Positions 5,329-63,862 of a DNA stretch of 64,000 nt are shown one piece after another. The notes below the pieces were generated by a model. The model saw only the letters and a program-made list of their open reading frames with translations, did no database searches and was not told the DNA's origin. Position 1 is the first letter of the stretch. The number at the start of each line of letters is the position of its first letter. Source of the stretch: Parelaphostrongylus tenuis (taxonomy: Eukaryota > Nematoda > Chromadorea > Rhabditida > Metastrongylidae); the NCBI GenBank assembly GCA_019055375.1, contig JAHQIW010007038.1:124001-188000 (forward strand), read 5' to 3'. The translations under genes were made by a program, and so were the position numbers.

Positions 5329-5850
5329 TATCACCTGTCACCTGTATCACCTGTCGTCCCGATGATCGTCGAGTGACTCGAGCGGGTACCAGCAACAATT
5401 CCATTTTTCCCTATCGCGTGCAAGAATAGCCCAGTGTGTCCTCCTCGCTCTAGGGATTCGCTGAGCATCATATTTTTCTTCCATCGCTTTCGTGAAGAAA
5501 TCGGACCAACGAATCGGTAGTCTTCTTGTAGAGCGCTTGAGGTCCCGAGAAATCCAGTCGGTAACGGCTCTCGTCCATCGGTTGTCGTTGAAGCGCATCA
5601 CGTGTCCGGCCCACCATATTTTTGATATCCTGGCGTGTAGAACGGCGTCTCTGATTTTCGATCGTTGACATATTTCGGAACTTCGGACCTTTTTCTCATT
5701 TGCAAAATACGGGATACCCCTAGCATCAACCTTTAGATTGCGCGGTTCAATAACGCCAAGTGATCTTTGATCCTGCTTACGTAGCAACCAGGTATCTGCC
5801 GCATACATTAGGACAGGGATAACCGTCGAGTCGAAAAGGTGCGGCTATAA
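5329..5850 (-). mobile_element. RTE-type non-LTR retrotransposon, 3' fragment
   Basis: The reverse strand encodes a truncated stretch of the reverse-transcriptase C-terminal region: HLFDSTVIPVLMYAADTW, then [38 protein letters not shown] and RWSDFFTK...[16 protein letters not shown]. It has a 5' truncation and ends in short CAGGTGATA-like tandem units, as RTE elements do. No endonuclease domain is present. The same family occurs at 46250-47036. It is inactive. Confidence 0.85.
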
Positions 5851-24665: not shown

Positions 24666-24675
24666 ATGACTCTGA
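24666..24675 (+). CDS. ATPase gene exon 1 (start codon, 10 coding bases)
   Basis: ATG ACT CTG A is followed directly by a consensus donor GTAAGT. It leaves phase 1, which fits the acceptor at 25051. The exon is very small and the start is supported only by phase agreement and the donor, so the true N-terminus could differ. Confidence 0.45.
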
Positions 24676-27600
24676 GTAAGTGTCATTCTACTTTTCCAAG
24701 AAAAACTTCTATCTTTCCCTGATCTTTCTAAAGACTTTTTTCAACCAAGAATGATATTTTGTGTGAAAAAGCGCGCGCTTTGACTAGCTGCTTTATCTAG
24801 AGTGTTGCAATTATTTTGCACGCTGTGCACTGTACTCAATGCATATTCAATGTCGTCTATTGATTATGCTCCTTGTAAGAAAACATGAAAGACAAGCTTC
24901 AGAAAGTTGGAATTCATCATTGTAGAACAAAGAAACCTACATCTTGGTGGCAAAGATCTGCATATTTTAACGCATAATATTTCATCTAGTACTAGCGTCG
25001 TCTGCACTGGCGCACCTCAATTTTTGCTGTGTTCAGTGTGACAGCTGCAGTTGTCACACCGTCCACTCCGGCAGTTTTTACGCAGTCCGCCCCCTTCTAT
25101 CGTGGTAACAATCTACGAACGGGTTTTTCTCTAAGTTTTAGAGAAAAAAATCTCTGCGCTTCTCTTATCCTATGTATTCTCCATTTTCTTCTCTATGCCA
25201 CCTCGTATGGTGCATACACAACTTTAGTGTATGGAGGAAAAGACATTCGTCCACTTTCCAATCATACCATTGCCAGCTTTTATTGAAGCTAAGTTATGCA
25301 AAGTATATTATGATGTTTATCTTGCGGTCTGAATATCCACTCATTCAAAATATCGAAAAGTCATCGTAGCGAGTGAGAATCGAAAAAAAACTTCGAAACG
25401 CTGTGAAAAATGATGTTGCACATTATATGGGATGACACAACATAGAAGCACAAACATTTATGTGCTTCACCACTTGCCACATTTTCTATGGCGCACACTT
25501 TTTTTCAGCAGCGATTAGCTTTCGCCGAAAATTAGAAATCAAGCGATAATTTACTATTGGGATATTCCTCTCTTGTGGACGGCGCCTATCCCAGCATTTG
25601 TGTTGGATAAGCTATCGATTAATTACAAGAAGCTTAGGGAAAAGCATCTTTCTATCAGAATAAACCACCAGAATGCATTTAGAATTTGCAGGAGCCATAC
25701 TAACCACGCTTGCAACACCACAGAAGAGTCATAGGTCAATAAATCGGCGTTTATAACCATGGCTGAACTCATGTGCTGCTAATTTTATTACGTTTGTAAC
25801 CTACGGGTTGTTGTAAATACATGTGCTCTCTATATTAATCGCACCTTTTTCGTCAAACAAGAACATCATGGTTCATGGTGAACTTTTTCGAGACTGGCCT
25901 CAGTATAAGTCCTTTCAAATTATAACGATGAAAATTGCGAAATAGAAAGATGATTGAGAAAATGAGATTTCATCCAGCTGAACACAAGTGATATTCTCCC
26001 ATATTATCGTTGATATTAGCAAAAACTGCTGTTTCGATGAAGAATTAGATCTGTTTGGATTATGAAGGTACTAAGCCGACAAGATTGCATCCAACTTGGT
26101 CCTTCAATAATCTGTCAGAGGTTAAAATTTTTCCTGAAACGTCAGCCGTGGTGAATAAAGGGTATAATAACAACTTCGTGAGCGTTTGATAGGAACGGTT
26201 AGTTACTGACCAGAGCTGAAAATAGTGTTAGAAGTTACTAAAATCTTGCTCTCATTATTTTTATGACTGGGTAAATTTTCAATTTCAATGGCACTTTCTT
26301 AAAAAATACTTATACCTCGTAAAGTGGGAGATCAAAGCCTCTACTGCACGTCTTCTAAGTCTTCAATTTCTTATTCACCCTAATAATTTAGAAGAATTCT
26401 TGCCATACATAGAAAAACCAGTTCGTATTGAATTTCTTAGATGAGAGCTGTGAATCATGGAAGACTATGAAGCGAAAAAAAAAAGATTATTTAGAATCGC
26501 ATGACTTGAATATTCAAGTTATTTGATTTATTTTCAGGTAAATTACACCTTAAAGATGATAGAAAAGAGAGATTATGGAAAATTTTGTTAATTCCTCAAA
26601 TTCTTAGAATAGTGAGATTGATTATTTCAGAAAAAGTATGTCAAGATGAATCTCAACTGAAGCACAACAAAGGTACGAATTTCGTCAGATATATACTGAG
26701 GATTAGCGACCGATTTATGGGACTTCTTTTATAGGTCTACCATTCGACCTGGAACTCGGTTTTTTGAGTCGATGGCGACGTAAAGACAAAGTTCGACCTA
26801 GCAGAACGGACATCACCGAGGCCAGAAACGTGCTTTGTTTTAGAATACAATGATATAGAGAAGTTCAACCCGATGATGATCAAAGTCACAAATCGAAGAC
26901 ATCAAATACTGCTTCCGTTCATTTATTGAAAACTAGGTTTTCAATGAATAAACAAGCAAAAATACGGGAAAAATACGGAAAATGTGCTCAGTACGTTTGT
27001 GAAGTCATCACCCAAGCCGAATTTATCCTTGAACAGTGTCCTTCAATGTGCATCGAGGTCTTTCTTTCTCAAATGCTATCTTCATGTGACTACAGTATCT
27101 GTTTGGTAACCAGTAATTAATAAAGGTGCGGAAAACTAGTTTCTTGACATCGTCGTTCAATTATTGGGTCGACTTTTTTGCTTTGTTCAGGATACGATAA
27201 TTTTAGATCAATGAAGCCTACCTCAACAGATGAAGTTCTATATGAATAAATTGGCTCGTGTATCAAAATCTGTACATGCAGTTCGGAACGTCCAAAATAC
27301 GCTTGATCTCTGTACAGCTCACTTGTCTTGAATATGTTCAGCCCATGAAATAGTGTACCAATTAGAAAATAGATTCATGTCTTATTAAGAGGAAAACGGG
27401 GCGCCGTGGCCGATTAGTTATGATGCTTGTCTTGACTCGCGTGGGAGCTGAGCTCCACCAACACTCTTCGGCAGTCAACAAGGAGACCTTATGGAACGCC
27501 ACAACTAGGCATCCTCAAGATTGCAAGGCGACATGCTCAATTAGTTTTTTAAGTCACTCAAGAAGAACGTGAAAAACGAATCGAATACTAGAAGTACTGG

Positions 27601-30600
27601 GATTCGCACAATAAAAATTGCAATGGTGGATCATGTGAATAAAATAAATAACAGTAGGGTGAAAACGGTATTGTTTTCTGCACGACCCGTCATCACAAGT
27701 CACTGTGCGGATTTCGACACTCTTGACAGACGATTCATTTCTCGCCTTTATTCTCCACAACTCTTCAGACATTTCACGTGTTGCTTCACCTGCTGCTTGA
27801 GGACTTTATTTTTTCATAAATTACTGGAAAGCCTGAGCTAAAGCTTCATCGATTGATTTGTAAGGGTGTGTGTGTGTCGAATAAGGGCCTTGCTTCCTGA
27901 AAGCCTGCATCACCAGCCATTCGGCCATAGTCCGTCCAAAGAATCATTATTTCAAGGAGTTAAGACACTGGCAAAATTGAAAAGTTTCGAAACTTCAATT
28001 GACAACATTTCATTTTTAGGCTGTTGGTACATCGTTCGTAGAACATCATTTAACAATCGAGCAGTTGAAGGATTTATATCAGGATTCCTATATTGATCAT
28101 GAATTTCCTGAACACAGTGACGGTTTATCTACAGAAGAAGCTAGGTGAGTAGTTGCAAAAACAGAGAAGTTTCAAGAGAATCACATCTCTTATCAGTAGA
28201 ATTGACCTCATAATCGACTCGTCTCACTTCCTGAGGCGGACTTATTTGAACATAATGGATGGTGGTCATCTATGAAGTCTCGAAATCACTTCATATTTCA
28301 TTTCGTTACTGAAGAACACTGCAGATGTTTTTTTCCTGTTCATTTTAGGAGACTACCATTTTCTCTTACAACAATTCTTCTTCGGACCTATTTTTGAAAT
28401 CTCGTTGTGAAAGTCATATTATTTTTAACTCCCGCAAAAGTAGTGTAATTATTGGAGTATAAACTGGGTAGAGTCGTATAAACTTGTAATGAGTAAGCAG
28501 ATGAATAGATACACTACATTAAGTTATCGAGGTCTTTATTTTCAAAAAAAAAATCTCTTTTCATATTTTCTGTGCAACCATTCTTGTATTTGGAATATAT
28601 AACAATTTCTTCATACGTACTCCAATCATTTTTGCATATTTTATAATAAGAATGATGACTTCAAAATAGCGGACTGGAACGAAACATTTTATATATGAGT
28701 ATTTTTGCCCTCATAAAATACTGCTATGGTTGATTCTTCCCGTAGATTTCATTTGTAGAGGTCTCGAAATCACTTCGTGGTATTCTATTTCGCAATCATA
28801 GAGATTCCACCAATATCGTTTTCCACTTTTTTTTTTCAGGAACTTCTATTTTCTCTAACAATCGTTCTTTTCCGGACGTATTTTTTGAATCTCATTCCGA
28901 AATTCCTACTATTTTTAGTTGCCAATTGTCATTGTCAACGAATTTATCTCAGTTTTTCTCCTTTCTTTCAATTCGAAGCATAAAACATTTGTAATATTTC
29001 AAATTATTGATTTTCTTCGTATCGTTCTTTTTCTGTTTCCGACAGTCCTCATGAATCTCTCAGTTCAGAAAATTATTATTCGCTTCATCTGCTGGCAATT
29101 TGCAAGCATCTGCCATCAATATAACCAAACCAATTCATGTTCACTCTTTGGTCCCAATAATCGGTTATTTCCAAAAGAAAGCATTGTTTTGACACTCTAG
29201 ATTGATACACAGATCCTTGTATATGGTTGGTATTTCCTTGTTGGACAGATCTAAGGTTGTTAATAAGATACGGTAGATACGAAGGAGTAATATCGAGTCA
29301 ATACACACTATCAATAACAACTTTGGATCTATTCAAATATGGAAACTTAGCTCTTTAGCTGGCACGAGGTTGGTAGACAACGTTGGTGTGCAGTTGTCTT
29401 TGGAACTTCTTGACAAAAATGGCACGAAATTAGTCAATGCTTGCTGAGGTAGAGAGATAGTCGGCCCTGGAAATTACAAAGTGCGAGGAAAGTTCTGATA
29501 TTTTTTTCGCATTTTTCATAGCTTAAACATTACTGCGTAATTAAATAAATTCATTTAACTGAAGGAATATTTACGTTTACCAGATCAGTAAATATGATGA
29601 TAAACAAAAAAGTTCATAACGAATTCTCAAAATTGTCTCCTTTGACTCCTTTGACCTCTTTATATCTGCAAAAATTGGAGGCGAATGCATGGCACATCCC
29701 TTAGGGATTGATCAACGCTGAGAGAACTATCTTTATCATTATCCTTTATATCTGCAGAGCCGCTTGAGAAAATTTCCGACGATGCTCGCACAAGTTTCCA
29801 CCATAGTTTAGTCCTAAGCGCGAGTCAATGCCGTTTTGAGGGCGTCTACGGTGGTGCAGCGAATAGCCCGAGACTTTTCTCTCCAGTATCGGTCACACGT
29901 AGTAATCAATGGGGTTGAGATCCGGTAAATTTGACGGCCAAATGTCCTTGCTCCAAATGATTCCGACGAATGAGCACTAGCTATCAAACAAATCATTCAA
30001 TGGGTCTTTAAAAGCCGTTTTCTTTTCATCTTTTTGTCCAAAAACTGAACGCAACCGATCTTCTAACTGCGCTTTTTCGGCTTATTTTTGACAATGTTTT
30101 GGGCACTCCACTCGCTGATCTCGGACTTTCCGAGCCATTTTGCGTATCGAACACTCCGAAATCCATTGAACTTGGAAACGGACTTTCTGAATGATTTTTT
30201 CGGAGTAGACGAGTGGTTGGACGACTCTTTCCAGGACGGTCTTTTCTCCCAGTCTCTTTGACGGCTGTTTCGCGGCTCACAGACACTTGCTGGTTTGAAA
30301 CCAGCTATTTCAACAATGTCTGCTGTTTTCATTCCCAACTTGCGCAGCTCAACTACTGCGATGCCTTCATTTTTATGATCAATAACTTAAGCATAACTGA
30401 AAATAGACATATCATTCGTTTCGAGTACTTTCTGAAGGCCACAGCTCAAATTTCAATATGCCACAAAATCATTTTTGAGCCCACATGATTGTGGTCATTT
30501 TTCTAACAGACCACACGACATACGTAGCTCAAAAGTGATTTAGTGGTATATTGAAATCTGAGCTGTAGTCTCAAGAAAACACTCGGAACAAAGATATGAT

Positions 30601-31107
30601 ATATTGAATATACTAGCCCCAAGCAATCGAGTCTACAACACTCTGTGTTCGGTGATAATTTCACTGGACATAGGGTGTAAAACGTTCGTTGTCGCTAACT
30701 ATTAGTGTGGGGAAGCGGTACCCACAGAGATTAGCAAAAGACGGAAAGGGTAATTGCCCGACTGACGAGAATGCAAAGTCGAAACACGTGTATCGCGCTT
30801 TATAAGTCAGCCCTTTTCTAACAGACTACACGACATTCGTGGCTCAAAAATGATTTTGTGGGATATTGAAGAATGACCAATAAGTAAGGCACATTTTGCA
30901 ACAAAATTAAACAAAGAACTCAATAAAATTATCAGAATCAAAAAAGAAAACACTTTGTTAATGCCAAAATTAATAAAAATACAAAATTATCAGGACTTTT
31001 CTCGCACACTGTATACTTGGCTGGTTGTGAAATGTTATATGGGCTTCGTTATGGTAACGCTCAGTGGATTGCTGGTTCAAGTTGATGATTGATGAAGTAT
31101 ATATATA

Positions 31108-31148
<41 letters not shown>

Positions 31149-46100: not shown

Positions 46101-46187
46101 GCTGCCAATAACCAACCAACCGTTAATGGCTTCTGTCTGGTAAGCTCATATTTGCATCAAACAGTGATAAACTGACTGCCATTAGAC

Positions 46188-46239
<52 letters not shown>

Positions 46240-52200: not shown

Positions 52201-55200
52201 GTGGAACGGTTCTTCCAGAGAATAGGCACATTTGAATCTTTGAAACTTACGCTATCGAATGATTACTCGTAATTGCCTGCGAGAATTAGCCGCATGTTAA
52301 ACACAGATCTTTTCTTTCTGCTACAGCGCTGGAACAGGGCCCTTTTCAAAAAATAGCCACGTACAGCAGTTCCCCGAGATTTAGGCTTTCGAATGATAAT
52401 TGAAAGTGCAATGGAAAGTTCTCATCCAATGCAAAATTTTCCTTCACTATTCCGTGTCGTTCAACGGAAATGAACCAGAAAACATAACACGTGGCTAAGT
52501 AATGGGCGGGTTTTTCCACGCACATCAGTTAGACTACATACACGTGTTGTCCAATAGGTGGTAATATTTACAGAAGAACATATGAAAACACATACCATCA
52601 GGGAGAAACGAAAATGTGGGCGGGAGCCGAGGAATAAAGCGCTAATCCCAAAAAAACTAATGCACCGATCTACTGCCATTCAAAGGGCTCATGATCTTGA
52701 TTTCAGTGCGCATTTCTATGCCCCAGCGGTCCTATGGGCTTGGCCCGTAAAAGTGGCCGCGTTTCTGACAGAATTAAAACTGCGCTGAAAATATGTTCCA
52801 CAAAAATAATATCATCAGTGTTACTGTAATTTGTTTCAGACCCGAGACTGCTGCCGCTATTAATCAATGCAAAGGTGCTGGCATTAAGGTAGCTTTGAGT
52901 TCTACTAAACAAAAACTATTCAAATTGCCATGAATACGAGTACAGATTTACTCAAAAATAAAAGTGGTTAAAATATTGCTGTGAAAGGAGTAAGGCAAAG
53001 GTCGGTAAGTGTAGTGAATAGTACGTGTGCCCGTGGAAAGAGTAATTAAGTTTTGACGCCCAACTGAGATTTCGAGTTTTGCTCACATCTCCTCATCCTA
53101 ATGGTTATAAGAAAAGTGGGCAAAAAGGCCTTCAGTAGATATTTTCAGGCAGTAGCATTACTTCTTCTCAAAACTTTTTATCTATTGGACTAATAAAAAG
53201 CTTGAGAATTAGATCGCTAGAAAGTTTAGGTATTCATGATCACTGGCGATCATCCAACTACGGCAAAAGCAGTAGCCACTCAGATTGGACTTATCGAAGA
53301 TATTAATGATAAGGTAAGAGCTCAATTTCGGATATTTATGACAACTTAAACATAATCGCTTTTGATGTTCGTTTCTGAGAATTTCCTTTGGATATTTGAT
53401 ACTACTATTTCTTCTAATTCCTTGTATCTATTGAATCTTGTTTTTCATTCAACACATACTTCAACTATTTGTGTTGACTTTGGAAGTTTGGCCGTGCCAC
53501 ATAAGACATAAACTAATTGCGCGTGGCATTCTATTTGTTAGTAAAATTATTTATAGACACTCACTGCTATCAAAAACTGTTCATTTTCTTACAAAAGGGC
53601 GGTTTTCGTAACATTTATCAATTTTGTACGAGTCCTGTGTCATAGCGCAGTGTCTTCACACATTTTAACAGTGCTTATGTAGATTGAATTTTCTTAATCT
53701 TCTGAACGTTCAACTACCTGAATTTTACGCATCTGGACCAGAGCGATTTCATTCCAGCAGAAACCTCGCAAACAAAGGGAAATATTTCGAAAAAATCTTA
53801 CTTGGTATTTTCCAAACTTCCTTCAGAGTAGATCCTGGAGAATATATACTCGTACAAATAAAACTTAGCAAGAAATCGTATCATTAACATATAGCAGGGT
53901 AGGCTAAAATCGAAGTCATCAATGACAAAGTGAGCCACTTGTGGTCGATGGCCAATTACAGCACGATCTTTCTTCGAGTCGCATGTGTTGCAGCCAATGG
54001 CTGCGCGTTGTGTCAGACTGTCGACCAATCCTAGCTCGCTTCATTTATCTTGATCTACAGATCAGATCACTTGCCACGGTCGTTGATTAGCTGAGACACT
54101 TTCATCCTTATACGCTAATTGTGTGGAAGGAGTTGTATTACAAAGACTTCGATGAACATGCGAAGAATTATGTTGGCATGGACACTCGCTTTAGGCTTGT
54201 TTAGCGTTTTGTGCTGCAGCCAAAAGACCCCTGTTGATTTTCGTAAAAGTTCAAAAAGTGTTCTATCGATAGTTATCATCCTTGTCATTTGTTTTCCTGA
54301 ACAAGCAACAAACTGCTCATTACAACGACGCATTTTGTCACTAATGTTGCTCCAACGGCCGCGAAAGTCGTCGCCTGTCTTATACATATCTCAAGGGTAG
54401 GTAGCAGGACTTCCCCCAAGCTTAGGTACTACTGAAATTTTCGCTGTACGTATCAGATACAAATATCGTCAGTCAGGTTTATTAATGCAAAACCACCAAT
54501 ATGGAAATAGATGCGCTATCAGGTCATTCTATAACTTTTGGCACTATAGAGCAAGAAACACCAAATTTCTTAACCAGAGCTAATTATAATTGCATTATTT
54601 TAAAATTGTTCATTCGCGCATTTTCCTGTGAACATTTTGCTATGCAATTTTCCTATACTTGCTTCTAGATGGAGCTGTCATGAGAACAAATTCGCTTAAC
54701 ACTCATGCACGAATGGTGCTTAGGAGAGAGCTAGTGAAGCGGCGTGCAAGATTAATGGAGCCTCCTGTGAACAGCCCGAGCATGACTCTTCCTTCAAACT
54801 GTTCTCTCCAGCTCTAAACTTCTCGAACTGCTTCCTAGCCGTCCTTTCCGCAACCATATCAACGCTCCAATCTCCCTAAATCTTGCGCGCCTCTTCACTA
54901 GCGTTTCCCTTAAGCGCCATTCGTGCATGAGTAGCAAGCGAATTTGTTCCCAAGACAGCTCCATTTTAACGCAAGCACAGGCAAGTTGTACACCAAAATA
55001 TTCACAAGAAAATGTGCAATTGGACGTTGCCAAATGTAGCAAAGGTTTGTAATCGATGCACTAGATTATAGTGCAGGTTCAGTGGTGTTTTTACTGTGCG
55101 GAGAAGGTTTAGTGCATTTAATATTTGATCCCTGGATTCTTTTGGTATGATTGGATCGATGGCTAAAGATGGTTGGACTGCCATTAGTGCTGCACTGACC

Positions 55201-55494
55201 TTTGGGCTGTCGTGCGTTAGACTTCCGGATTGCTGCGCCCTTTCTCTTTGAAGTGGTGTGTTGCATTGCCAGGTTCTGTGGATTGAACTTTGGACAATCT
55301 GATCGATATCTGTTGCCAACTTGTGTCTTGTAACGGACAAGAGCACAAAACCAACGTTTTCATACGGATTATACCAAACAATGGCGTTGTACCAAACTAC
55401 TTGGTAGCACCAAACAATAGGGTGGAACCAAACAATGGTGTTGTTCCAAAAACATGTAATATACATATATCACAATAACAATAATAATATAGTA

Positions 55495-55550
<56 letters not shown>

Positions 55551-58500: not shown

Positions 58501-61500
58501 GTCGCGCCGTCGCTCGCACGGCAGTCAGGCAGGCGGCATCTGCATGTCTGTGCGTGCTTGTTTGGTTGCCTACCTGCTTCCTCACGAGGCGCAGCCTTGC
58601 TTATATAGTACCTAAGTGAGATTTGACGTCGTGCGGCTTGCCATGAAACGTATCATATGGTCCTTAAAGGATAAGAGATGCCGATTTTCACCCTGTCGTA
58701 GTATTCTTTCCGTTTTGTGAAACATGTATACAAAGATAAGATCGTTTTTATGGTCACAGTGACTTAGCGGAGAAATCAGTCGATTGCGGAGAATTGGATT
58801 ACGTCAAATCAAATTTGTACAATGAGGTAGCACAAATATTCTACCATATTTGCAGATCGGTATGAAAACAGAAGGCCGTGATTGGTGTGTCGTGACTGGC
58901 GAACAATTGCAAGATTATAATCAAGCAGAATGGGATGCTTTACTGCGACATCAATATATTGTTTTTGCGAGGTAAATCATTTATTCATGCACGACTTTTT
59001 TATGGGACAAAAGTAGTATACTGGTTAACGGTGCCCTACAATACACACGTGGTGTCCGGTTCGATCTCCTACCCAGAAAAACCAAGTTCTTTCTTATGAG
59101 TAAGGTGGGCAAATTAGTACCGCACTTTTCCAAGATAATGATACACTGACTTGGTACATGGTAAGCTATCGTAAATTAGTCCATAGGCCACATATCCACT
59201 TAACTTTCCCTGTCACACACGAAAGGAGTCGAAAGCGTAGCATATCTTTCAGAATTGATCGAGATCGAACTCTTAATTAATTTGGACTTACTTCATTTCT
59301 TCGGCTCACTGCATGAAATTAGAATGATCTAAATGCACATAGTCGTATAAGATCGATCAACTATGGGACTGGAAATTTTTCTAATTTCCGTTGTAGTGTT
59401 TATATTCCCGGTAAAAAAGTGTTTATTGGACTGGCTCACACAACATTGGCTGCAGTTTCATGCTTAATCATCTGACAGGAAAGGCGGGCCATCTAAGTAT
59501 TCAAGTGTTCACCTAGCGCTGAAAAAGAAGTAGTATCCGTTTTCGAATACTAATTAAGTTGTAGGGTTGCTTCTGATTAGGTGGGAGCAAATGAAAAACC
59601 GATCTCGTTTCCTGGAGAGGAATTATCCTAGGAGTGGTAGTAACCATTCGAAAGCTGAGACTTGAAATACAGCTCCACGTCACCGTTTTTTCAAAACATC
59701 CCTCTATAACGCTGTAGCATCCAGATCAAAAATTACAATTCACACTCGCTTTTCGCCTTCATTCTTATCACGCGTATAAATCACTGGAAGCCGAAAAGCA
59801 TTTCAATCTGTAGAGAAATTCCCGTAGTATCTTAGTCGATCGTTTTATCTGAAGTTTCTTTCAGAGCGGAAGAAAAATTCCCATCTGAATAACAGTATAT
59901 CAATCGTCCCGGCTCCCCCCCCCCCCTACCCTGCCGCTGTCTTCGTTTTGTCGAATAACTGGTAAATAATGTTGCAAAAAATGTAAAACTCGATCTCACT
60001 TTCCCTGCTAAGCTGTAGTCTCAGAAAATAAGCACATAGCTAGAATCAGGAAACATTACGCTATCAGATGATTATTGCTAGTCTAAAAAAAAGAGCTCTG
60101 TCCGGCAAGGTTCAAAGCACAAATCAAAAGACCAGAGGAGATCAAAAGACTCAAATAAGGTTTTTGAAAAGCAAACAAATTATTGAGTTCTCTGAAATTT
60201 GTGCTATGATTTGAGTACTAGTAGTCTTAGGCAAGAATTTTGTCCGAAAGAGAAAAAAACATGTGGTTTATGAAGCATGATTTTATTTTGAATGCTACAG
60301 CGTTTCAAAGGGGTTTCGTAAAAAAAAATTGGTGACATGGGGCTATGGCCCAAACTCCCAGCTTTCGAACCTTTACCAATTTTCCTATGAAAAGTTCCTC
60401 TCCAGCGAATGAGATCGGTTTTCCCTCCCAATGAGAAAAAAAAATGCAGCTTACTGCTTCATGGAGAAATGTTGACGGATGGCTAGGAGTTTTCAGGACA
60501 AATCTTGAGCAGAAGTTGCGTATTGTTCAAGAAGTTCAACATCGTGGCGAGACTGTAGCGGTGACAGGCGGAGGCGTGAACGATGCCCCAGCCCTTGCTC
60601 GTGCCAACGTTGGTATTGCAATGGGACGTTGTGGTGAGTAAACTTATAGCGAAGAGGCCTTGATTCATATCTATCTTGGGTCGTGATCTGTAACTATCAC
60701 AATCAGTTCTATTTATACAACATTTCTCTATTTTTGTGACATAACACGAAATAAACGAAATTTTCGTTAGATCTCTTATCTGTTATATTGAGTGGTCTCT
60801 GCCTCGATTGATGTTTCTGTTTGAGACCTTCCGTGAAAACGAATTTTTTGCTTCTGTAAAGCGTTCTAGTAGCCGTTAGATAGCTCAGATCAAGTGAATT
60901 TCAATGGTATGTTTGATTCCTCAAATAGCTTATTTTTGACGCCGTACCAATCAAAATAATATTTGGTTCCTTATTTGAAAATTCTCACTGGATAAAAGTG
61001 TTATTGTAATGAATTTTTATTCGTTAGATAGAGAAAATCCTTCCGATTATACTGGTGTATTTGGCTTTTGAAAAGGACCTCTTCGAGCTTTGTAACGACC
61101 GATAGAATATTGGGTTTCACACTTAGTGAGAACTTCTAGACGGCTAGGGTGTGTGTACAACTGTAATACCAAAGAGCAAACACAATCTGTTAATCAGAAA
61201 ATTTGCTCTATCTAATGGTTGGAATTTTGTTATAAAGAAACTTTTAATAGGCGAGAAATCTCCAAATGTGAAACGAAATCTCATTTTGACTGGTACGGCG
61301 TTAAACACAAGCAATATGAGGAATAAAATATACCTTTAAATTCACTTGATTTGAGCTATCGATAAACTGCAGAAACGCTTTTAAAAGTAGAAAATACGTT
61401 TTTACCAAATGCCTCAAGTGGCGCCGCCATGATAAACAGTACTTCTCGGGTATCTTCAAAATATCAAATGTGAAACAAAATCTCATTTTGACTGGTACGG

Positions 61501-63862
61501 CGCCAGAGATAAAGTATTTAAGAAATTACGCATGCCATTAAAATTCGCTTGATTTAAGCTACTAGATAACATACATTCGTCAGATAACAGCAAAGAATAC
61601 GCTTTTACCGAAGGTCTCAAAAGGCGCCCCATAAGAAAACAGTACCTAAGTTTGCTACCAACTGTTTGGTGTATAAATATCTAAATCATAGATGACCTTA
61701 CTAAAAGAAATTTTGCATCCGAAGGAAATGGCAATTTTACGGAGCAATTAATAACTACGGCAGAAGTGTTCATTCAATAAAGTACCTATTTATTAAAGTT
61801 TTGATTGAATGACCTATGCTACTGTGGCGCTTGATATAAAATTTTGCCGTCATTCAGACATTTTTTTTATGATTTCTCAATGTAAATGAGGAGGTTAGCG
61901 CAGTATTTTTATTCCTGCTGTATTTCTAAGCTATCATAATGAATATCTCATTTTCCAACCTTGAAACTTTTATTTCTTCTTTACATGTACAACTTTAATG
62001 TGCTGTTGCAAAGTGAAAAATAATGCTAAGAGTTCAGTTTTATTCTAAATTATCACGATATTATTCTCAGTCACTGTTCAGGAAGTGATATTGCAAGACA
62101 AACAGCTGATATTGTACTTTTGGACGACAATTTTGCATCAATTGTGAAGGGAATCGAGGAAGGCCGTCTTTTGTTTGACAACCTAAGGTCTCGTCTTTAC
62201 GCAAAAAATACCCAATACTGGCCGCCTTACAATGTGACACTGTTTCCAGGCTCTCGTTAGCATACACCTTTGCACATCTTTGGCCGGAACTTTTTCCTAT
62301 AATGCTCACGTTTGTACTCGGTTTACCGCAGGGACTGTCACCAGTACAGGTATTATTTTTGGTTTCTCTAGGGACTTCTCCCCTATGCGCACCCACAGCC
62401 AAAAAGCGTATTTTCTGTTCATTCTAGACATTTTTGTCGTACTCGATAGCTTGGATTTTGAGAATCCGAACAGTGTATCTATTTTCTAAGAGGCCTTTAT
62501 ATTACGCTATATCAATGACAATAAAGTTTTATTTCACGCTCGAGCATTTTACGCTTAACAAAGCTTTGGTTTTTTGCACACCACTCTGCATCATGGGTTT
62601 ATTGTACCATCATAACACCGTAATAGGCGGTCAAATAAAATGATTTATGATTGGTTATTGAAGCCCAATAACTGTAAACATACGTGGATTCAATGTCGAT
62701 AAGTAACTGCCTACGCCAGACTGTAGATGGTTGGCTGTTGACAGATAACGCGTTATAGCGCAAAAAGCGAGGTGTGCAAAACGAGCGTCGGTAGTGCAAT
62801 GGTTCAGCACGCCCTCCCGGAAAGAGTGACATCTGCGTTCAAGTCCTAGCTGATGCAAGGGTTTTTGCACACCACTCTACATCATTGGGTTTATTCTAAC
62901 TGAAGATTGCGTTTCACATGCGGTGCGCATACCTTGCACCGGCATGTGGACAGATTTCGCAACATTGTCATCAAGCTGTTGCCTTCCATTAACTAGTCGA
63001 TAGCTCAAACCCAATGATTTCAATAGTATACTTGCTTTCGGAAAGGAGAGTTCTCTTAGCGTGCTATAGCAGTAAGAATAAAATCTTATATTACACTCTA
63101 TCGTCTGTCGTTAGAAAGTGCTCTTCATTCGGGCTTTCAATGACCATTCAATAGCACAATTTTCAACTATTTCAATTAATACGTGGTTTTCAACAAAGAC
63201 TTCTTAGTGCGTCTTTACAGCTAAGAGAATATTGGGTTTCGCACTCGTCGCGCATTACGCGCCATTTATGAATTGCGTTGCGCGATCGACGCGGCGACGA
63301 GTGCGAAACTCAATATTTTTTTAGCTGTAACTACGCAGAAAATGTCCATGTCTTCCTTGGAGACCGACCGTATCAATAAAATCGTTTGAGATTTGTGCTG
63401 TCGAATAGTCACTGGAATTGTGAATCAAAAGCTTTGTACAGCGAAAGATGCTTGAGTGTGAAAAAAGTTTAATTTTTATTATTACGGCATAATATAAATA
63501 CCATTTACAAATTGAACTACACTGTTGGAATTTTCGAGATTCAAGCTATCAAATGGTCACTAAAACATCAAAAAGAATCAAACCTGCGCTTTTTTTTTTA
63601 AAAGAGTGAATAGGGGAAAAGTATATTTTCCCGTAATGTCAGCACAATTTCTTACCATCTAGATACTATCCATTGATCTGGCGTCTGAATTACCTCCAGC
63701 AGTATCGTTAGCGTACGAGCAACCAGAGGAGGATATTATGTTAACTCCTCCGCGGAGTCGCAAAACTCGTCTTCTTTCCAAAGGTTTACTTGCCTATGCC
63801 TACTTCTTCGCGGGTACCGGTATCACAATCGGTTGTATGGCGGCCTACTTGAGTGTTTACTG
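24666..63862 (+). CDS. P-type ATPase alpha-subunit-like gene (class IIC, Na+,K+-ATPase/CATP family), 26 exons, 3' end outside window
   Basis: Exons in order: 24666-24675, 25051-25104, 26735-26829, 28020-28144, 35056-35165, 35692-35840, 36875-36987, 38230-38306, 39375-39517, 39806-39954, 40592-40749, 41713-41820, 44646-44744, 45429-45564, 47991-48097, 48784-48899, 49343-49447, 49537-49659, 50421-50578, 52840-52888, 53230-53313, 58856-58971, 60497-60633, 62082-62187, 62250-62349, 63663-63862. All junctions are GT-AG and the phases match throughout, giving 975 whole codons (usual family length about 1,000-1,050). Seen in order: M1-M2, actuator domain, M3-M4, phosphorylation and nucleotide domains, hinge, M5-M6 and M7. 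The family couples ATP hydrolysis to Na+/K+ or H+/K+ exchange at the plasma membrane with a beta subunit. Here TGES, PEGL, DKTGT and TGDGVND read TGQM (residues 244-247), PQGL (363-366), DKSGT (406-410) and TGGGVND (818-824). Nucleotide-site motifs FNS, KGAPE (628-632), TGDHP (733-737) and the QKL lysine (801) are kept. I infer a non-pumping or altered paralogue, not a decayed gene, because the frame is intact over 39 kb. Exact orthology is not determined. Confidence 0.9.
25051..25104 (+). CDS. ATPase gene exon 2 (N-terminal cytoplasmic tail)
   Basis: Opens after GCTGCAG and ends at GTAACA. It encodes about 18 residues rich in Val, Thr, Pro and Ser ([11 protein letters not shown]...). It enters in phase 1 and leaves in phase 1, matching exon 3. 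The N-tail of this family is poorly conserved, so support comes from splice sites, phase and the higher GC content. An acceptor at 25036 is the alternative. Confidence 0.5.
25105..26734 (+). other. intron 2 of the ATPase gene
   Basis: About 1.6 kb, AT-rich. No repeat family or other gene recognised. Confidence 0.4.
26735..26829 (+). CDS. ATPase gene exon 3 (basic N-terminal segment)
   Basis: Starts after TTTTATAG and ends at GTGCTT. It encodes a basic stretch ([21 protein letters not shown]) that runs in frame into exon 4. A Lys/Arg-rich N-terminal segment before the conserved helix is usual in Na+,K+-ATPase alpha subunits. The donor is weak, so the 3' limit is less sure. Confidence 0.62.
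26830..28019 (+). other. intron 3 of the ATPase gene, with tRNA-like repeats
   Basis: 27398-27475 (GGCGCCGTGGCCGATTAGTT) looks like a tRNA-derived head, and 27690-27850 matches the CTTTGAACATTCACGTG-type dispersed repeat. The lysine-rich frame at 26926-27120 shows no family match. Confidence 0.45.
28020..28144 (+). CDS. ATPase gene exon 4 (N-terminal cation-ATPase domain)
   Basis: Encodes [17 protein letters not shown]... GLSTEEAR, matching the family pattern DHKLSLDEL...GLT..RA at the start of the N-terminal cation-transporting ATPase domain. The acceptor is TTTTTAG and the donor GTGAGT, leaving phase 2. Confidence 0.9.
29780..30345 (-). mobile_element. mariner/Tc1-like transposase remnant, internally deleted
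   Basis: On the reverse strand an N-terminal part ([19 protein letters not shown]) is followed by basic sequence and then a C-terminal catalytic block, [20 protein letters not shown], typical of mariner (WPPNSPDLNPLDYFVW). The middle is missing and frames are shifted, so it is inactive. Confidence 0.75.
30420..30870. repeat. foldback-family fragment
   Basis: A short inverted pair (about 30447-30485 and 30530-30566: TTTCAATATGCCAC / GTGGTATATTGAAAT) plus AAACACGTGTATCGCG and an extra copy of the arm near 30815-30870. Confidence 0.55.
31098..31265. repeat. TA/TATG-rich microsatellite
   Basis: Runs of (TA)n interrupted by TATGCA, TATACATA and similar units. It gives spurious Tyr/Ile frames on both strands. 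Confidence 0.9.
32585..32790 (-). mobile_element. mariner-like remnant (both ends joined)
   Basis: The reverse strand reads [15 protein letters not shown] (N-terminal part) running into [20 protein letters not shown] then EGEYFDY, the C-terminal signature of mariner transposases. The catalytic core is gone. Confidence 0.68.
34130..34860 (-). mobile_element. mariner-like transposase C-terminal half, decayed
   Basis: Reverse-strand fragments include LSYSPNFDP-like then [19 protein letters not shown], and an end like [14 protein letters not shown], matching YSPDLSPSDFHLF..L...L and W...V...G.Y. Several stops interrupt it. Confidence 0.6.
35056..35165 (+). CDS. ATPase gene exon 5 (end of N-domain, start of M1)
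   Basis: Encodes [18 protein letters not shown] followed by [14 protein letters not shown]. This corresponds to LERDGPNALTPP...VKFCKQLFGGFSLLLW of Na+,K+-ATPase. Usual DGPN reads GGYN. It follows a 6.9 kb intron. The phase joins (AG|G and G|GT) are exact on both sides. Confidence 0.9.
35166..35691 (+). other. intron 5 of the ATPase gene
   Basis: 526 bases. A frame at 35313-35513 ([12 protein letters not shown]...) has no family match. Nothing else seen. Confidence 0.4.
35692..35840 (+). CDS. ATPase gene exon 6 (M1 end, M1-M2 loop, M2)
   Basis: Encodes [17 protein letters not shown] (M1 and the extracellular loop), then a hydrophobic M2 and LWQENKARK, the counterpart of YYQEAKSSK. The acceptor ATGTTTAG at 35690-35691 fits the upstream phase. 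The nearby GTGCAG at 35676-35678 would break the frame with exon 5. Confidence 0.93.
35841..36874 (+). other. intron 6 of the ATPase gene, with repeats
   Basis: 35935-36080 matches the CTTTGAACATTCACGTG-type dispersed repeat. 36360-36445 (reverse strand) has a tRNA-like head (CCTCGGTGGTGCATCCCCG...GGTTCAACTGC) like 1983-2060. Confidence 0.5.
36875..36987 (+). CDS. ATPase gene exon 7 (actuator domain, first part)
   Basis: Encodes [18 protein letters not shown]... [15 protein letters not shown], matching IMESFKNMVPQQALVIR...EEVVVGDLVEVK. The VVGDLV core is intact. Confidence 0.95.
36988..38229 (+). other. intron 7 of the ATPase gene, with a SINE-like repeat
   Basis: 37610-37835 carries TGCATATCTGGCCTTTATAC, GATGTATCAAGTC and GCGCTGGTTCGAAACATC (B-box-like). 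It is related to 7615-7760 and 5180-5310. The rest is unremarkable. Confidence 0.5.
38230..38306 (+). CDS. ATPase gene exon 8 (actuator domain, RIPAD)
   Basis: Encodes [15 protein letters not shown]...SEVTG, corresponding to [28 protein letters not shown]. RIPAD is intact. The last codon is shared with exon 9, where the TGES motif should follow. Confidence 0.95.
38307..39374 (+). other. intron 8 of the ATPase gene
   Basis: About 1.07 kb, with a short AT microsatellite at 38894-38945. Nothing else recognised. Confidence 0.4.
39375..39517 (+). CDS. ATPase gene exon 9 (actuator domain, TGQM in place of TGES)
   Basis: Begins with the end of TGQMAPVE and continues through [24 protein letters not shown] (family: [23 protein letters not shown]). 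The glutamate that drives dephosphorylation (E214 in Na+,K+-ATPase) is Gln here and the next Ser is Met. The 3' donor is consensus GTAAGC. Confidence 0.95.
39806..39954 (+). CDS. ATPase gene exon 10 (end of actuator domain, M3)
   Basis: Encodes VLGGIANL...[15 protein letters not shown] then a hydrophobic M3 ([20 protein letters not shown]). The family equivalent is VMGRIATL...TPIAAEIEHFIHIITG. The donor is consensus GTAAGT. Confidence 0.95.
39955..40591 (+). other. intron 10 of the ATPase gene, with a perfect hairpin
   Basis: Near 40340-40362 lies CTAGCACAG, a 5-base loop and CTGTGCTAG, a 9-base perfect stem in a locally GC-richer stretch (40190-40380). No gene seen. Confidence 0.5.
40592..40749 (+). 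CDS. ATPase gene exon 11 (M4 with PQGL in place of PEGL)
   Basis: Encodes [20 protein letters not shown] and then [21 protein letters not shown]4 is well kept, but the cation-coordinating glutamate of PEGL (E327) is Gln (residue 364), a side chain that cannot supply the same negative charge. It is followed by IKKVDLI, as in VKNLEAV. Confidence 0.96.
41035..41693. repeat. foldback element in intron 11, next to exon 12
   Basis: The left end TTGGTACTGTTTTATTATGG...CGGCGCCACTTGAGGCCT pairs with the right end AGGCCTCAATTGGCACCGCC...AACAATACC. Inner blocks (AAATTCACTTGATTTGAGCT / its inverse) also pair. A related element is in intron 23. The right end is 20 bases from exon 12. Confidence 0.75.
41713..41820 (+). 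CDS. ATPase gene exon 12 (phosphorylation site, CADKSGTLT)
   Basis: Encodes [20 protein letters not shown]...MVVTDLWY. The phosphorylated Asp (residue 406, D369 in Na+,K+-ATPase) is present, but the invariant Thr of DKTGT is Ser and the usual CSDK reads CADK. The acceptor lies only about 20 bases after the end of a foldback repeat. Confidence 0.96.
42234..43222. repeat. long foldback element in intron 12
   Basis: The ends TTATCTGATCGCCGTTTCGA and TCGAAACGGCGATCAGATAA are perfect inverses. Arms of several hundred bases follow with TTTTGGTCTTTTTCAATG and inverted counterparts. A 644-base relative is at 16997-17640; this copy has about 340 extra bases, probably a partial duplication. Confidence 0.78.
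43565..43800 (+). repeat. dispersed repeat, direct copy at 47255-47485
   Basis: Both copies share ATAAAACAT(C/A)TGA(C/T)TCTG, CTCCAAGATT/CTTCAAGATT, AGGCTTAGACT, TTTCTACAATT and CTGTACAAAAC/CTCTACAAAAC in order. An inverse fragment is near 51910-52020. Confidence 0.6.
44455..44525 (-). repeat. tRNA-like element
   Basis: The reverse strand has CAGGCGCGGTAGATATACAT and CTGGTTCAACACTC, spaced like A and B boxes. It lies in intron 12. Confidence 0.45.
44646..44744 (+). CDS. ATPase gene exon 13 (after phosphorylation site)
   Basis: Encodes [20 protein letters not shown]...LPDILT. The acceptor is unusual (AATTTAAG). An in-frame TAA lies directly before it, so the exon cannot start earlier; AG at 44647-44648 also keeps frame (one residue shorter). 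It aligns with the variable region between the phosphorylation site and the CNRA motif. Confidence 0.8.
45429..45564 (+). CDS. ATPase gene exon 14 (CNRA motif, start of N-domain insert)
   Basis: Encodes [12 protein letters not shown] (family: ...AGLCNRAVF) and then a basic, Ser-rich stretch. The end at GTGAGC leaves phase 2, the only choice that joins exon 15 in an open frame. A donor at 45464 would give phase 0 and fail with exon 15. Confidence 0.83.
46010..46065 (-). repeat. tRNA-like fragment
   Basis: The reverse strand GCTTTGGTGGTGTATTGTGG resembles the head of the 1983-2060 element. It lies in intron 14. Confidence 0.35.
46188..46240. repeat. (TA)n microsatellite
   Basis: About 25 uninterrupted TA units directly before the RTE fragment. 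Confidence 0.95.
46250..47036 (+). mobile_element. RTE-type retrotransposon 3' fragment in intron 14
   Basis: Encodes [16 protein letters not shown] ... [15 protein letters not shown] ... [18 protein letters not shown], then after a frameshift (two bases lost near 46577) [13 protein letters not shown] ... [20 protein letters not shown] ... [10 protein letters not shown] ... [16 protein letters not shown]. This is the end of a reverse-transcriptase domain plus its C-terminal extension. It is 5' truncated, ends in CAGGTGATA units and runs into a TA microsatellite. Same strand as the host gene. Sister copy at 5329-5850. Confidence 0.88.
47034..47150. repeat. TA/TATG microsatellite after RTE fragment
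   Basis: (TA)n passing into TATACATGTA-type units. It probably grew from the element's short tandem tail. Confidence 0.85.
47255..47485 (+). repeat. dispersed repeat, second copy of 43565-43800
   Basis: See the 43565-43800 entry for shared blocks. It is followed directly by the tRNA-like element at 47485-47550. Confidence 0.6.
47485..47550 (+). repeat. tRNA-derived short element
   Basis: CCCCGATGGTGAAGTGATAG resembles an A box and TCGGGTTCACCTCC a B box. It does not fold as a full tRNA. It lies in intron 14. Confidence 0.45.
47991..48097 (+). CDS. ATPase gene exon 15 (Ser/Arg-rich insert)
   Basis: Encodes [20 protein letters not shown] then [15 protein letters not shown] after an acceptor TTTTTATAG. 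Phase 2 in and phase 1 out agree with both neighbours. It has no counterpart in ordinary Na+,K+-ATPases. It is polar, probably disordered, with several Ser/Thr next to Arg. RNA support would settle whether it is constitutive. Confidence 0.72.
48784..48899 (+). CDS. ATPase gene exon 16 (basic run, nucleotide-domain helix)
   Basis: Starts with a Lys/Arg cluster ([10 protein letters not shown]), then [20 protein letters not shown] and GIRQRYH. The family equivalent is GDASESALLKCIEL...MRERY. The acceptor is ATTTCAG and the donor GTAGGT. Confidence 0.95.
49343..49447 (+). CDS. ATPase gene exon 17 (nucleotide domain, EIPFNS)
   Basis: Encodes [16 protein letters not shown] and a linker ending IPQPSK. 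The FNS motif, whose Phe stacks on the ATP adenine, is intact. It is separated from exon 18 by an 89-base intron. Confidence 0.95.
49537..49659 (+). CDS. ATPase gene exon 18 (KGAPE nucleotide-binding motif)
   Basis: Encodes [19 protein letters not shown] and then [17 protein letters not shown] (residues 628-632) holds the nucleotide-site Lys labelled by FITC in Na+,K+-ATPase and is intact. The acceptor is CATTTAG. Confidence 0.96.
49707..50266 (+). mobile_element. mariner element with terminal inverted repeats in intron 18
   Basis: The ends GTGTCCAGCTAAG(TTTTCGAACTTGATCC) and the inverse of (GGATCAAGTTCAGAA)ACTTAGTTGGATAC pair over about 35 bases. Inside, decayed frames read [41 protein letters not shown], and [20 protein letters not shown] then [14 protein letters not shown], the DNA-binding half of a mariner transposase. 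The catalytic half is missing. Confidence 0.8.
50421..50578 (+). CDS. ATPase gene exon 19 (N-domain end, MDPPR hinge)
   Basis: Encodes [20 protein letters not shown] ... [20 protein letters not shown]. The Arg of GERVLGF-like sequence is kept (GRRVIAF), and DPPR closes the nucleotide domain. The Ile-Met order before DPPR is reversed relative to MIDPPR. Confidence 0.96.
50579..52839 (+). other. intron 19 of the ATPase gene
   Basis: About 2.3 kb. 51910-52020 holds an inverse fragment of the 43565/47255 repeat, and several GCTGTAGCA/TGAGCAAAGCTTTT-type blocks resemble the foldback families. No gene seen. Confidence 0.45.
52840..52888 (+). CDS. ATPase gene exon 20 (phosphorylation domain, CKGAGIK)
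   Basis: A 49-base exon encoding [16 protein letters not shown], equal to AAVPDAVGKCRSAGIK. The acceptor is TTGTTTCAG. Confidence 0.95.
53230..53313 (+). CDS. ATPase gene exon 21 (TGDHP motif)
   Basis: Encodes [20 protein letters not shown] then [13 protein letters not shown] is intact. The family usually has a longer stretch between here and the VVHGSDL region; in this gene the join to exon 22 is short. It is followed by a 5.5 kb intron. Confidence 0.95.
54668..54965 (-). mobile_element. mariner 5' end with inverted duplicate
   Basis: The reverse strand from 54964 reads [18 protein letters not shown], then across a shift [20 protein letters not shown] and [15 protein letters not shown], a mariner N-terminal domain. 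54668-54763 repeats its first 90 or so bases in the opposite orientation, making a palindrome with about a 110-base spacer. Confidence 0.68.
55493..55551. repeat. (TAA)n microsatellite
   Basis: About 19 uninterrupted TAA/AAT units. It produces poly-Ile/Leu frames that are not genes. Confidence 0.95.
55667..56100 (+). repeat. direct duplication, two units about 270 bases apart
   Basis: 55667-55835 and 55938-56085 share TGATCCATG(T/G)TATCGACTGT, GCAATAAACAT, AAGAATGTTTAG, GCGAGGTT(G/A)GTACGCCAG and CGGAGGTCT(T/C)GCCCCC. The inverse family member is at 23640-24065. Confidence 0.75.
57230..57380. repeat. arm of the ACACGTGTTTCGGCC foldback family
   Basis: Contains TTATAAAGTGCTAAACACGT, GTTTCGGCCATTCAACTTC and GAGCCAATCCCTTG, like 7860-8025. 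Confidence 0.55.
58856..58971 (+). CDS. ATPase gene exon 22 (VVTGEQL...IVFAR)
   Basis: Encodes [20 protein letters not shown] then [11 protein letters not shown], equal to KACVVHGSDLKDM...LKYHTEIVFAR. The acceptor is TTTGCAG and the exon leaves phase 2. Confidence 0.95.
59010..59190 (+). repeat. tRNA-headed dispersed repeat in intron 22
   Basis: GTCCGGTTCGATCTCCTACC (B-box-like) followed by GGGCAAATTAGTACCGCAC. It is related to 18040-18170 and 41905-42020. Confidence 0.5.
59583..60435. repeat. foldback element in intron 22
   Basis: The left arm AAAACCGATCTCGTTTCCTG...GAGAGGAA pairs with the right end TTCCTCTCCAGCGAATGAG...ATCGGTTTT, and CATTCGAAAGCTGAGA pairs with its inverse. It contains a run of about 13-14 C at 59917-59930. 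It ends about 60 bases before exon 23. Confidence 0.7.
60497..60633 (+). CDS. ATPase gene exon 23 (TGGGVND in place of TGDGVND)
   Basis: Encodes [18 protein letters not shown], then [19 protein letters not shown] and IAMGRCG. The QKL lysine near the active site is present (residue 801). The first Asp of TGDGVND (D710, needed for Mg2+ and phosphorylation) is Gly (codon GGA); the second Asp remains. TSPQQKL reads TNLEQKL. Confidence 0.96.
60784..61668. repeat. foldback element in intron 23, related to 41035-41693
   Basis: Shares AGATAGCTCAGATCAAGTG, GTATTTGGCTTTTG, TCATTTTGACTGGTACGGCG (twice) and the right end CGCTTTTACCGAAGG...AACAGTACC with the intron 11 copy. A second right-arm copy (61441-61668) suggests internal duplication. 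Confidence 0.68.
62082..62187 (+). CDS. ATPase gene exon 24 (DDNFASIV, leading to M5)
   Basis: Encodes [20 protein letters not shown] then [15 protein letters not shown], an almost unchanged family block ([32 protein letters not shown]). It is separated from exon 25 by a 62-base intron. Confidence 0.96.
62250..62349 (+). CDS. ATPase gene exon 25 (M5 and M5-M6 loop)
   Basis: Encodes [19 protein letters not shown] and then [14 protein letters not shown]5 keeps the Glu of the WPE turn (E779), but the cation ligands Ser775 and Asn776 of Na+,K+-ATPase align with His and Leu. The acceptor is TTTCCAG and the exon leaves phase 0. Confidence 0.94.
62350..63662 (+). other. intron 25 of the ATPase gene, with a tRNA-like element and a palindrome
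   Basis: 62784-62860 (GTCGGTAGTGCAATGGTTCA, GTTCAAGTCCT) is a tRNA-like element. 63220-63342 is a strong palindrome. The short block TTTTGCACACCACTCTGCATCA occurs on both sides of the tRNA-like element (near 62572 and 62863), i.e. a direct repeat flanking it. Confidence 0.55.
63220..63342. repeat. strong hairpin-forming palindrome
   Basis: GTTTCGCACTCGTCGC at 63235-63250 is exactly inverted at 63295-63310 (GCGACGAGTGCGAAAC is the inverse), with flanking TTACAGCTAA / TTAGCTGTAA also paired. It is the centre of a wider foldback-like region in intron 25. Confidence 0.75.
63663..63862 (+). CDS. ATPase gene exon 26 (M6, loop, M7); gene continues past window
   Basis: Encodes [20 protein letters not shown], then [18 protein letters not shown] and a hydrophobic M7. 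In M6 the first cation Asp (D804) is kept and the second (D808) is Glu. It ends at a GTTCGT donor in phase 2. M8-M10 and the stop codon are not in the window. Confidence 0.93.

Follow-up and report, generated by a model that had tools for sequence, protein, structure and literature searches.

The 64,000-nucleotide stretch of DNA analysed here, called the window, lies at bases 124001-188000 on a contig of 204,423 bases from the genome assembly (481.5 Mb, 5,105 contigs) of Parelaphostrongylus tenuis, the deer meningeal worm, which is placed in Metastrongylidae. Template-guided splicing against an orthologous protein, P0001, resolved 26 exons of a P-type ATPase gene within the window, all on the forward strand, from an ATG at 24666 to a splice donor at 63862. 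The template has 1,118 residues and is encoded on an independent 3,960-base contig, evidently a spliced transcript, whose source code 'lgn' was taken as Logan. Junctions were resolved by script against P0001, with exons 1 and 2 placed by eye and one donor, that of exon 3, set by hand. This donor, at 26829, was picked over a slightly better-scoring GC donor at 26820 because it is a GT donor and agrees with the Haemonchus protein P0002. The spliced frame contains 971 codons and no stops, and all 25 of its introns are bounded by GT and AG. The initial annotation had described an open, phase-consistent frame containing TGQM, PQGL, DKSGT, and TGGGVND, which the splicing confirmed, together with the number of exons and the two ends; the 975 codons given there are revised to 971.

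Exon 1 (24666..24675) carries the start codon and encodes MTL, and is followed by exons 2 (26631..26672), 3 (26735..26829), and 4 (28020..28144). By homology, the first transmembrane segment (TM1) begins in exon 5 (35056..35165) and exon 6 (35692..35840) covers TM1-TM2. Exons 7 (36875..36987) and 8 (38230..38306) encode A-domain sequence, and the TGQM motif spans 38303-39382, interrupted by intron 8. Specifically, exon 8 supplies the Thr and the first base of the Gly codon, and exon 9 (39375..39517) supplies the remainder, up to 39382. TM3 is assigned by homology to exon 10 (39806..39954). Exon 11 (40592..40749) encodes TM4 with PQGL at 40653-40664, and exon 12 (41713..41820) enters the P domain with DKSGT at 41745-41759. 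Exons 13 (44646..44744) and 14 (45429..45564) lead to the N-domain insert in exon 15 (47991..48097), a region of low confidence in the predicted model of P0001. Exon 16 (48784..48899) precedes exon 17 (49343..49447), where the N-domain sequence PFNSIRRW has an Arg replacing an otherwise conserved Lys. KGAPE lies at 49564-49578 in exon 18 (49537..49659), and DPPR starts at 50568 in exon 19 (50421..50578) and receives its final base from exon 20 (52840..52888). TGDHP is found at 53242-53256 in exon 21 (53230..53313), and TGGGVND at 60564-60584 in exon 23 (60497..60633), with exon 22 (58856..58971) between them. After exon 24 (62082..62187), exon 25 (62250..62349) encodes TM5 with HLWPE at 62275-62289. 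Exon 26 (63663..63862), the last in the window, encodes TM6-TM7 by homology and contains IDLASE at 63672-63689.

Over 971 columns the spliced window protein and P0001 share 92% identity. Its residues 243-971 are 100% identical, over 729 residues, to the GenBank model P0010, 'ATPase Na K transporting alpha [Parelaphostrongylus tenuis]', which derives from the same 204,423-base contig. These two matches place the gene model far above chance. P0010 is itself truncated. It begins at the Met of TGQM (residue 243) and therefore lacks the N-terminal 242 residues.

The window protein shares 64% identity over 946 columns with Caenorhabditis elegans CATP-1 (P0015); the C. elegans protein P0063, of the CATP-2/CATP-3 group, is 44% identical over 945 columns. 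The assignment of P0015 as CATP-1 is based on residues D409 (the Asp of DKSGT), R668, R669, and Q905, which match the numbering in the available text of PMC11631496. The 1,045-residue length of P0015 fits isoform b.

Homologues were collected as the best 120 of 1,610 and the best 120 of 4,271 protein matches, giving 198 different proteins. The alignment took 171 of 199 rows (850-1250 amino acids), and trees were built from 57 and 56 of these. In the 57-row tree, calculated after removal of the TGQM, PQGL, DKSGT, and TGGGVND columns, the window protein grouped with CATP-1 and another 32 nematode rows in a 34-row clade with SH-aLRT support of 100. A mixture-model tree of 56 rows, from which the long Gnathostoma row was omitted, recovered the same group with one change and support of 100, and FastTree analysis of all 199 rows gave a 69-row CATP-1 group with support of 1.0. 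Among the matches listed, the members of the 34-row clade come from clades III, IV, and V of the nematodes, as assigned from the species names. Its placement in these trees makes the P. tenuis gene, which encodes an alpha subunit of Na,K-ATPase type, the orthologue of C. elegans CATP-1. Alignment to homologues bore out the intact frame and the altered motifs, but the gene groups with CATP-1 and is not the separate paralogue that had been supposed.

The two orthologues share PQGL, DKSGT, and TGGG, as well as AHLWPE in TM5 and DLASE in TM6. They differ in that C. elegans CATP-1 has TGHR where the P. tenuis protein has TGQM and TGGGVDD where it has TGGGVND. P0063 resembles the P. tenuis protein in being of P2C type, in having PQGL, and in the Q and H of the TM8 segment; unlike the P. 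tenuis protein, it retains TGE, DKTGT, the N-domain Lys, and TGDGVND. The likeness to the Na+,K+-ATPase alpha subunit of the EAT-6 type is in domain order and fold.

An AlphaFold2 model of P0001, made from 51 aligned rows, had a mean pLDDT of 81.9 and a pTM of 0.76, with low confidence at the N terminus and in the N-domain insert. The best 50 of 638 structure matches to this model were Na,K- and H,K-ATPases, the top match being 8jbk_A with a TM-score of 0.83 by target length. The top TM-scores were to E1-state entries and were not used as evidence of state. As judged from the predicted model, the Na,K-ATPase fold is kept. The Pfam families PF00690, PF00122, PF13246, PF00702, and PF00689 all scored above cut-off in P0001. 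The P2C X,K-ATPase alpha model TIGR01106 gave the top score with all four proteins scanned; its NCBI cut-off of 946.1 bits was not reached by P0001 (675.2), P0015 (594.3, isoform b), or P0063 (760.0), and the bee Na,K alpha subunit P0194 scored 1310.3. SYGQ, the beta-assembly motif of alpha subunits, is present before TM8 in all four animal alpha subunits compared (P0185, P0192, P0194, and P0190). Within the same comparison of 12 rows it is absent from the CATP-1 rows P0001, P0002, P0003, and P0016 and also from P0063, P0043, oomycete P0081, and P0174. Because SYGQ is absent, pairing of CATP-1 with a beta subunit is unsupported.

The motifs were surveyed across all 199 rows, 69 in the CATP-1 clade and 130 outside it, counting only the rows that cover each position. 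The window protein and P0010, which represent one gene, are both included in the clade counts, and some rows are faulty gene models, such as P0002, which lacks the TGDG region. Equivalences to residues of the pig enzyme were taken from the alignments. Among the matches listed, the first Asp of TGDG is present in 0 of 54 CATP-1 rows and in 128 of 128 rows outside the clade. It is replaced by Gly in 43 rows, Gln in six, Ser in three, and Asn in two, and the neighboring Asn is retained in 33 of the 54. The Glu of TGE is found in 18 of 66 CATP-1 rows versus 127 of 128 outside; 14 of the 48 CATP-1 rows without it have Asp. Similarly, the N-domain Lys is kept in only 2 of 67 CATP-1 rows, 63 having Arg, versus 128 of 129 outside, and the Thr of DKTGT in 38 of 66 versus 130 of 130. 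In the 30 rows of clade V among the matches listed, the TGDG position is Gly wherever it is covered (17/17), the Asp of the DKTG-type motif, which is phosphorylated in P-type pumps and is called the phosphorylated Asp below, is always retained (29/29), and the TGE Glu is absent from 28 of 29 rows, being found in P0069 only.

Other parts of the catalytic machinery are nearly invariant. Among the matches listed, the phosphorylated Asp is retained in 63 of 66 CATP-1 rows, the Asp of DPPR in 66 of 66, the Lys of KGAPE in 68 of 68, the last Asp of TGDGVND in 54 of 55, and the TM5 Glu and the first TM6 Asp in 53 of 53 each. The P. tenuis protein follows this pattern. It keeps the phosphorylated Asp within DKSGT, and KGAPE, TGDHP, DPPR, the Lys of FARTNLEQKL, and the last Asp of VND are unaltered. 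At its cation site the TM5 Glu and the first TM6 Asp are retained, the TM4 Glu is replaced by Gln, and the second TM6 Asp is replaced by Glu; both replacements are common in relatives with intact motifs. Indeed, among the matches listed the second TM6 Asp is present in 0 of 53 CATP-1 rows but also in just 19 of 129 outside rows, and the Glu of PEGL in 0 of 67 CATP-1 rows but only 28 of 130 outside, where 82 of 130 have Gln.

The change from PEGL to PQGL was therefore rejected as a loss of function: Gln is common at this position outside the clade, where the TGDG Asp is present in every row that covers it. DKSGT is weak evidence of impairment because the phosphorylated Asp is retained. We regard the absence of the first Asp of TGDG as the strong change suggested by the alignments. 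The statement that nearly all catalytic motifs are altered, made in the initial annotation, was accordingly too broad, although the loss of the TGE Glu and the TGDG Asp on which it partly rested is real.

A few rows depart further from the pump consensus. Three divergent clade IV paralogues of CATP-1 from Aphelenchoides and Bursaphelenchus, P0068, P0113, and P0087, belong to the same clade as the P. tenuis protein but have additionally lost the phosphorylated Asp, with VAKSG, SYKAG, and TGRAG, respectively, at this position. A very divergent protein of Gnathostoma spinigerum (P0160), weakly placed beside the CATP-1 clade, has the sequence CEKTGIFT, in which Glu replaces the phosphorylated Asp, and retains TGD.

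Outside the clade, with P0160 left out, 93 positions carry one residue in at least 97% of rows among the matches listed, and 72 of these 93 have the same residue in at least 90% of rows inside the clade. The P. tenuis protein retains 81 of the 89 near-invariant positions that it covers. It departs at eight of them: half are the TGE Glu, the DKTGT Thr, the N-domain Lys, and the TGDG Asp, and half are I739V, P794L, V840I, and K873L. K873L replaces a Lys before TM5, and Leu is found there in 54 of 54 CATP-1 rows among the matches listed. This distribution argues, indirectly, that the alterations of P. tenuis CATP-1 do not reflect general decay and that the rest of the protein is strongly conserved.

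The P. tenuis assembly itself contains at least two separate sodium-pump-type alpha genes beside CATP-1. One, on contig C4863 (L041, L042), has LTGESEP, VPEG, SDKTGT, and VTGDGVND. The second, on C183 (L059, L060), is seen as four exon-sized stretches with LTGESEP; the end of the contig cuts it off at a point corresponding to about residue 260 of P0194. On C655 and C2202 the matches belong to the PMR1 and SERCA types. A search with P0063 (20 matches, with weak matches on C477, C2195, and C725 left out) revealed no gene of CATP-2/CATP-3 type in this assembly. A sequencing artefact as the source of the motif changes in the window was rejected, as the same or similar residues occur in the orthologues and the C4863 gene has intact motifs.

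The residues lost from CATP-1 have defined roles in P-type ATPases. In the available text of PMC11172918, TGES is said to act in dephosphorylation and the TGDG motif in binding Mg2+, and TGD and TGDGXND coordinate Mg2+ according to that of PMC4368207. The phosphatase motif of the A domain is described as having a Glu in all pumps (PMC10654040, available text), and the P. tenuis protein departs from this with TGQM. The best reading of the residues present and absent, which we consider somewhat more probable than not, is that the CATP-1 orthologue of P. tenuis still binds ATP, no longer completes the cycle of phosphorylation and dephosphorylation at pump rates, and serves in the membrane as a regulator instead of a transporter. 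In the simplest order of events, the TGDG Asp would have been lost once at the base of the CATP-1 clade and the TGE Glu later, in several separate losses. Without the TGDG Asp the catalytic Mg2+ would be held poorly, and phosphoryl transfer would therefore be slow or absent. In clade V, without the TGE Glu, any phosphoenzyme that did form would be expected to stay unhydrolysed. The retained fold, ATP-site residues, phosphorylated Asp, and TM5 and TM6 carboxylates could then support ligand-gated changes of shape that are sensed by partner proteins, probably in the epidermis, where C. elegans CATP-1 is reported to act.

A broader proposal, which we put forward tentatively and as slightly less probable than its opposite, is that CATP-1 constitutes a natural pseudo-pump family across clades III, IV, and V. 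The Mg-binding Asp would have been lost once before these clades split, the phosphatase Glu later in several lineages, and the phosphorylated Asp in a few. Having stayed under strong constraint, the protein may now serve as an ATP-gated membrane switch in moulting and developmental timing.

The near-invariance of the phosphorylated Asp and of the TM5 and TM6 carboxylates is the main difficulty for a non-pump function, as a pure scaffold would have no obvious need of them. Retention of the phosphorylated Asp in 63 of 66 CATP-1 rows among the matches listed argues against a purely passive scaffold. Of the earlier proposal of an ATP-binding scaffold or regulator in place of a transporter, the catalytic impairment is a fair reading.

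Because the phosphorylated Asp and two cation-site carboxylates are retained, the main rival explanation is that CATP-1 still pumps cations but with altered chemistry, its cycle being slow or its ions different. The P-domain Mg2+ would be held in such a pump by the phosphorylated Asp, main-chain oxygens, and perhaps another acid. The conserved DPPR Asp, last Asp of TGDGVND, and KGAPE Lys fit this explanation as well, and a candidate compensating site is suggested by the alignment: Glu-392 of the window protein, in the sequence IDELGA before DKSGT, corresponds to an acid in 66 of 66 CATP-1 rows among the matches listed, as against 0 of 130 rows outside, a comparison in which P0160 was left out of the outside group. 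In the available text of PMC11631496 and PMC10904576, CATP-1 is treated as a pump. Nevertheless, the TGDG Asp is kept by all of the outside rows that cover it, and its varied replacements (Gly, Gln, Ser, and Asn) and the partial retention of the adjacent Asn are as in a relaxed site. The lack of the TGE Glu in most CATP-1 rows and the three clade IV rows entirely without the phosphorylated Asp also speak against a pump. We consider an altered pump unlikely, though it is the alternative with the greatest claim to attention.

A second alternative is a one-way phosphorylation switch, in which the retained Asp acquires its phosphate slowly and a long-lived phosphoenzyme, in clade V proteins without the TGE Glu, stores a signal with no cycling. 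The clade V combination of a universal phosphorylated Asp with a nearly universal lack of the TGE Glu would suit such a device. So would genetic data given in the available text of PMC11631496, where the D409E allele suppresses nekl defects most strongly, with strong suppression of nekl-2; nekl-3 lethality, whereas neither kr17 nor the putative null ok2585 has this effect; this is the pattern expected if the state of the phosphorylated Asp matters. By the same source, D409E is the weakest among the tested suppressors of DMPP toxicity. Against the switch, the phosphorylation step would itself be expected to slow down when the TGDG Asp is absent, and phosphorylation of CATP-1 is not mentioned in the available text of the CATP-1 literature examined. 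On these grounds the switch appears improbable.

A third alternative, that the P. tenuis gene is a young pseudogene, turns on its 3' portion. The gene extends beyond the window, with further exons at 65580, 66239, and 71361-71549 (coordinates past the window are L009 positions plus 63500). In the exon at 65580, which lies before TM8 (L009:2080-2250, approximately 65580-65750), the reading frame appears to slip by one base near 65708 when compared with P0001 and P0002. Beyond this slip P0010 finishes out of frame and so also lacks TM8-TM10. The slip is either an assembly error or a real break, and the functionality of the gene in P. tenuis hangs on which of the two it is. An assembly error would equally yield a single-base slip. 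All 26 exons in the window are open, as is the last exon, 71361-71549, which ends in a stop after TM10, and the window part of the protein has the close match to its orthologue described above. Furthermore, real CATP-1 relics in the P. tenuis genome look quite different. One lies close to the beginning of C4749, the contig that carries the window itself (L045:4324-5597 and 9325-9367), and corresponds to exons 16-19 and 21; the other, on the minus strand of C131 (L043:7842-8916), corresponds to exons 19-21. In both, several pieces contain stops, and DNA identity with the gene is 73-83%. We therefore view a young pseudogene as very improbable.

The suggestion in the initial annotation of a second alpha subunit of signalling type, separate from CATP-1, correctly described the altered motifs but can be set aside almost entirely, as the gene is the CATP-1 orthologue itself with full support, C. 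elegans CATP-1 carries the same or similar alterations, and the P. tenuis assembly yielded no other close copy besides the decayed fragments.

CATP-1 has been studied in C. elegans in moulting, in nicotinic-agonist arrest, and in touch glia, and is labeled a Na+/K+ pump in the available text of recent papers. According to PMC11631496 in the text available, catp-2 is strongly upregulated in catp-1(kr17), and Ruaud and Bessereau (2007) suggested a pump-independent function of CATP-1; the initial annotation had cited this function as reported, and we find it at second hand and as a suggestion. The available text of PMC10904576 describes a requirement for catp-1 in glia beside eat-6. The changes in TGE and TGDG are not mentioned in the available text of PMC11631496, PMC11849984, PMC10904576, PMC9648848, PMC12811337, PMC10159168, or PMC12919929, although D-K-S/T-G-T is; the supplements and the 2007 Development paper lie outside this coverage and may hold prior notice. 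The word 'motif' does not occur in the main text of PMC11631496. A literature search found nothing on pseudoenzymes among P-type ATPases, on TGDGVND in C. elegans, or on TGDGVND mutation with Mg2+ or phosphorylation. What would interest a specialist is the lack of the TGDG Asp across the whole family. If the CATP-1 family does naturally lack a residue that all compared outside relatives keep, the pump label becomes doubtful and the conflicting D409E results turn into a direct, testable question. CATP-1 would then be a natural, long-conserved pseudoenzyme among the P-type ATPases, in which the fold, ATP site, and cation site could be studied separately from turnover.

Elsewhere in the window, an Rfam scan gave no match, and a Pfam scan of four transposon-like open reading frames, including that at 46567-47022, gave none. 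The open reading frames at 46567-47022 (forward strand) and 5350-5844 (reverse strand) have clearly similar translations, which by eye resemble the tail of a non-LTR retrotransposon. The former sits inside intron 14 of the CATP-1 gene.
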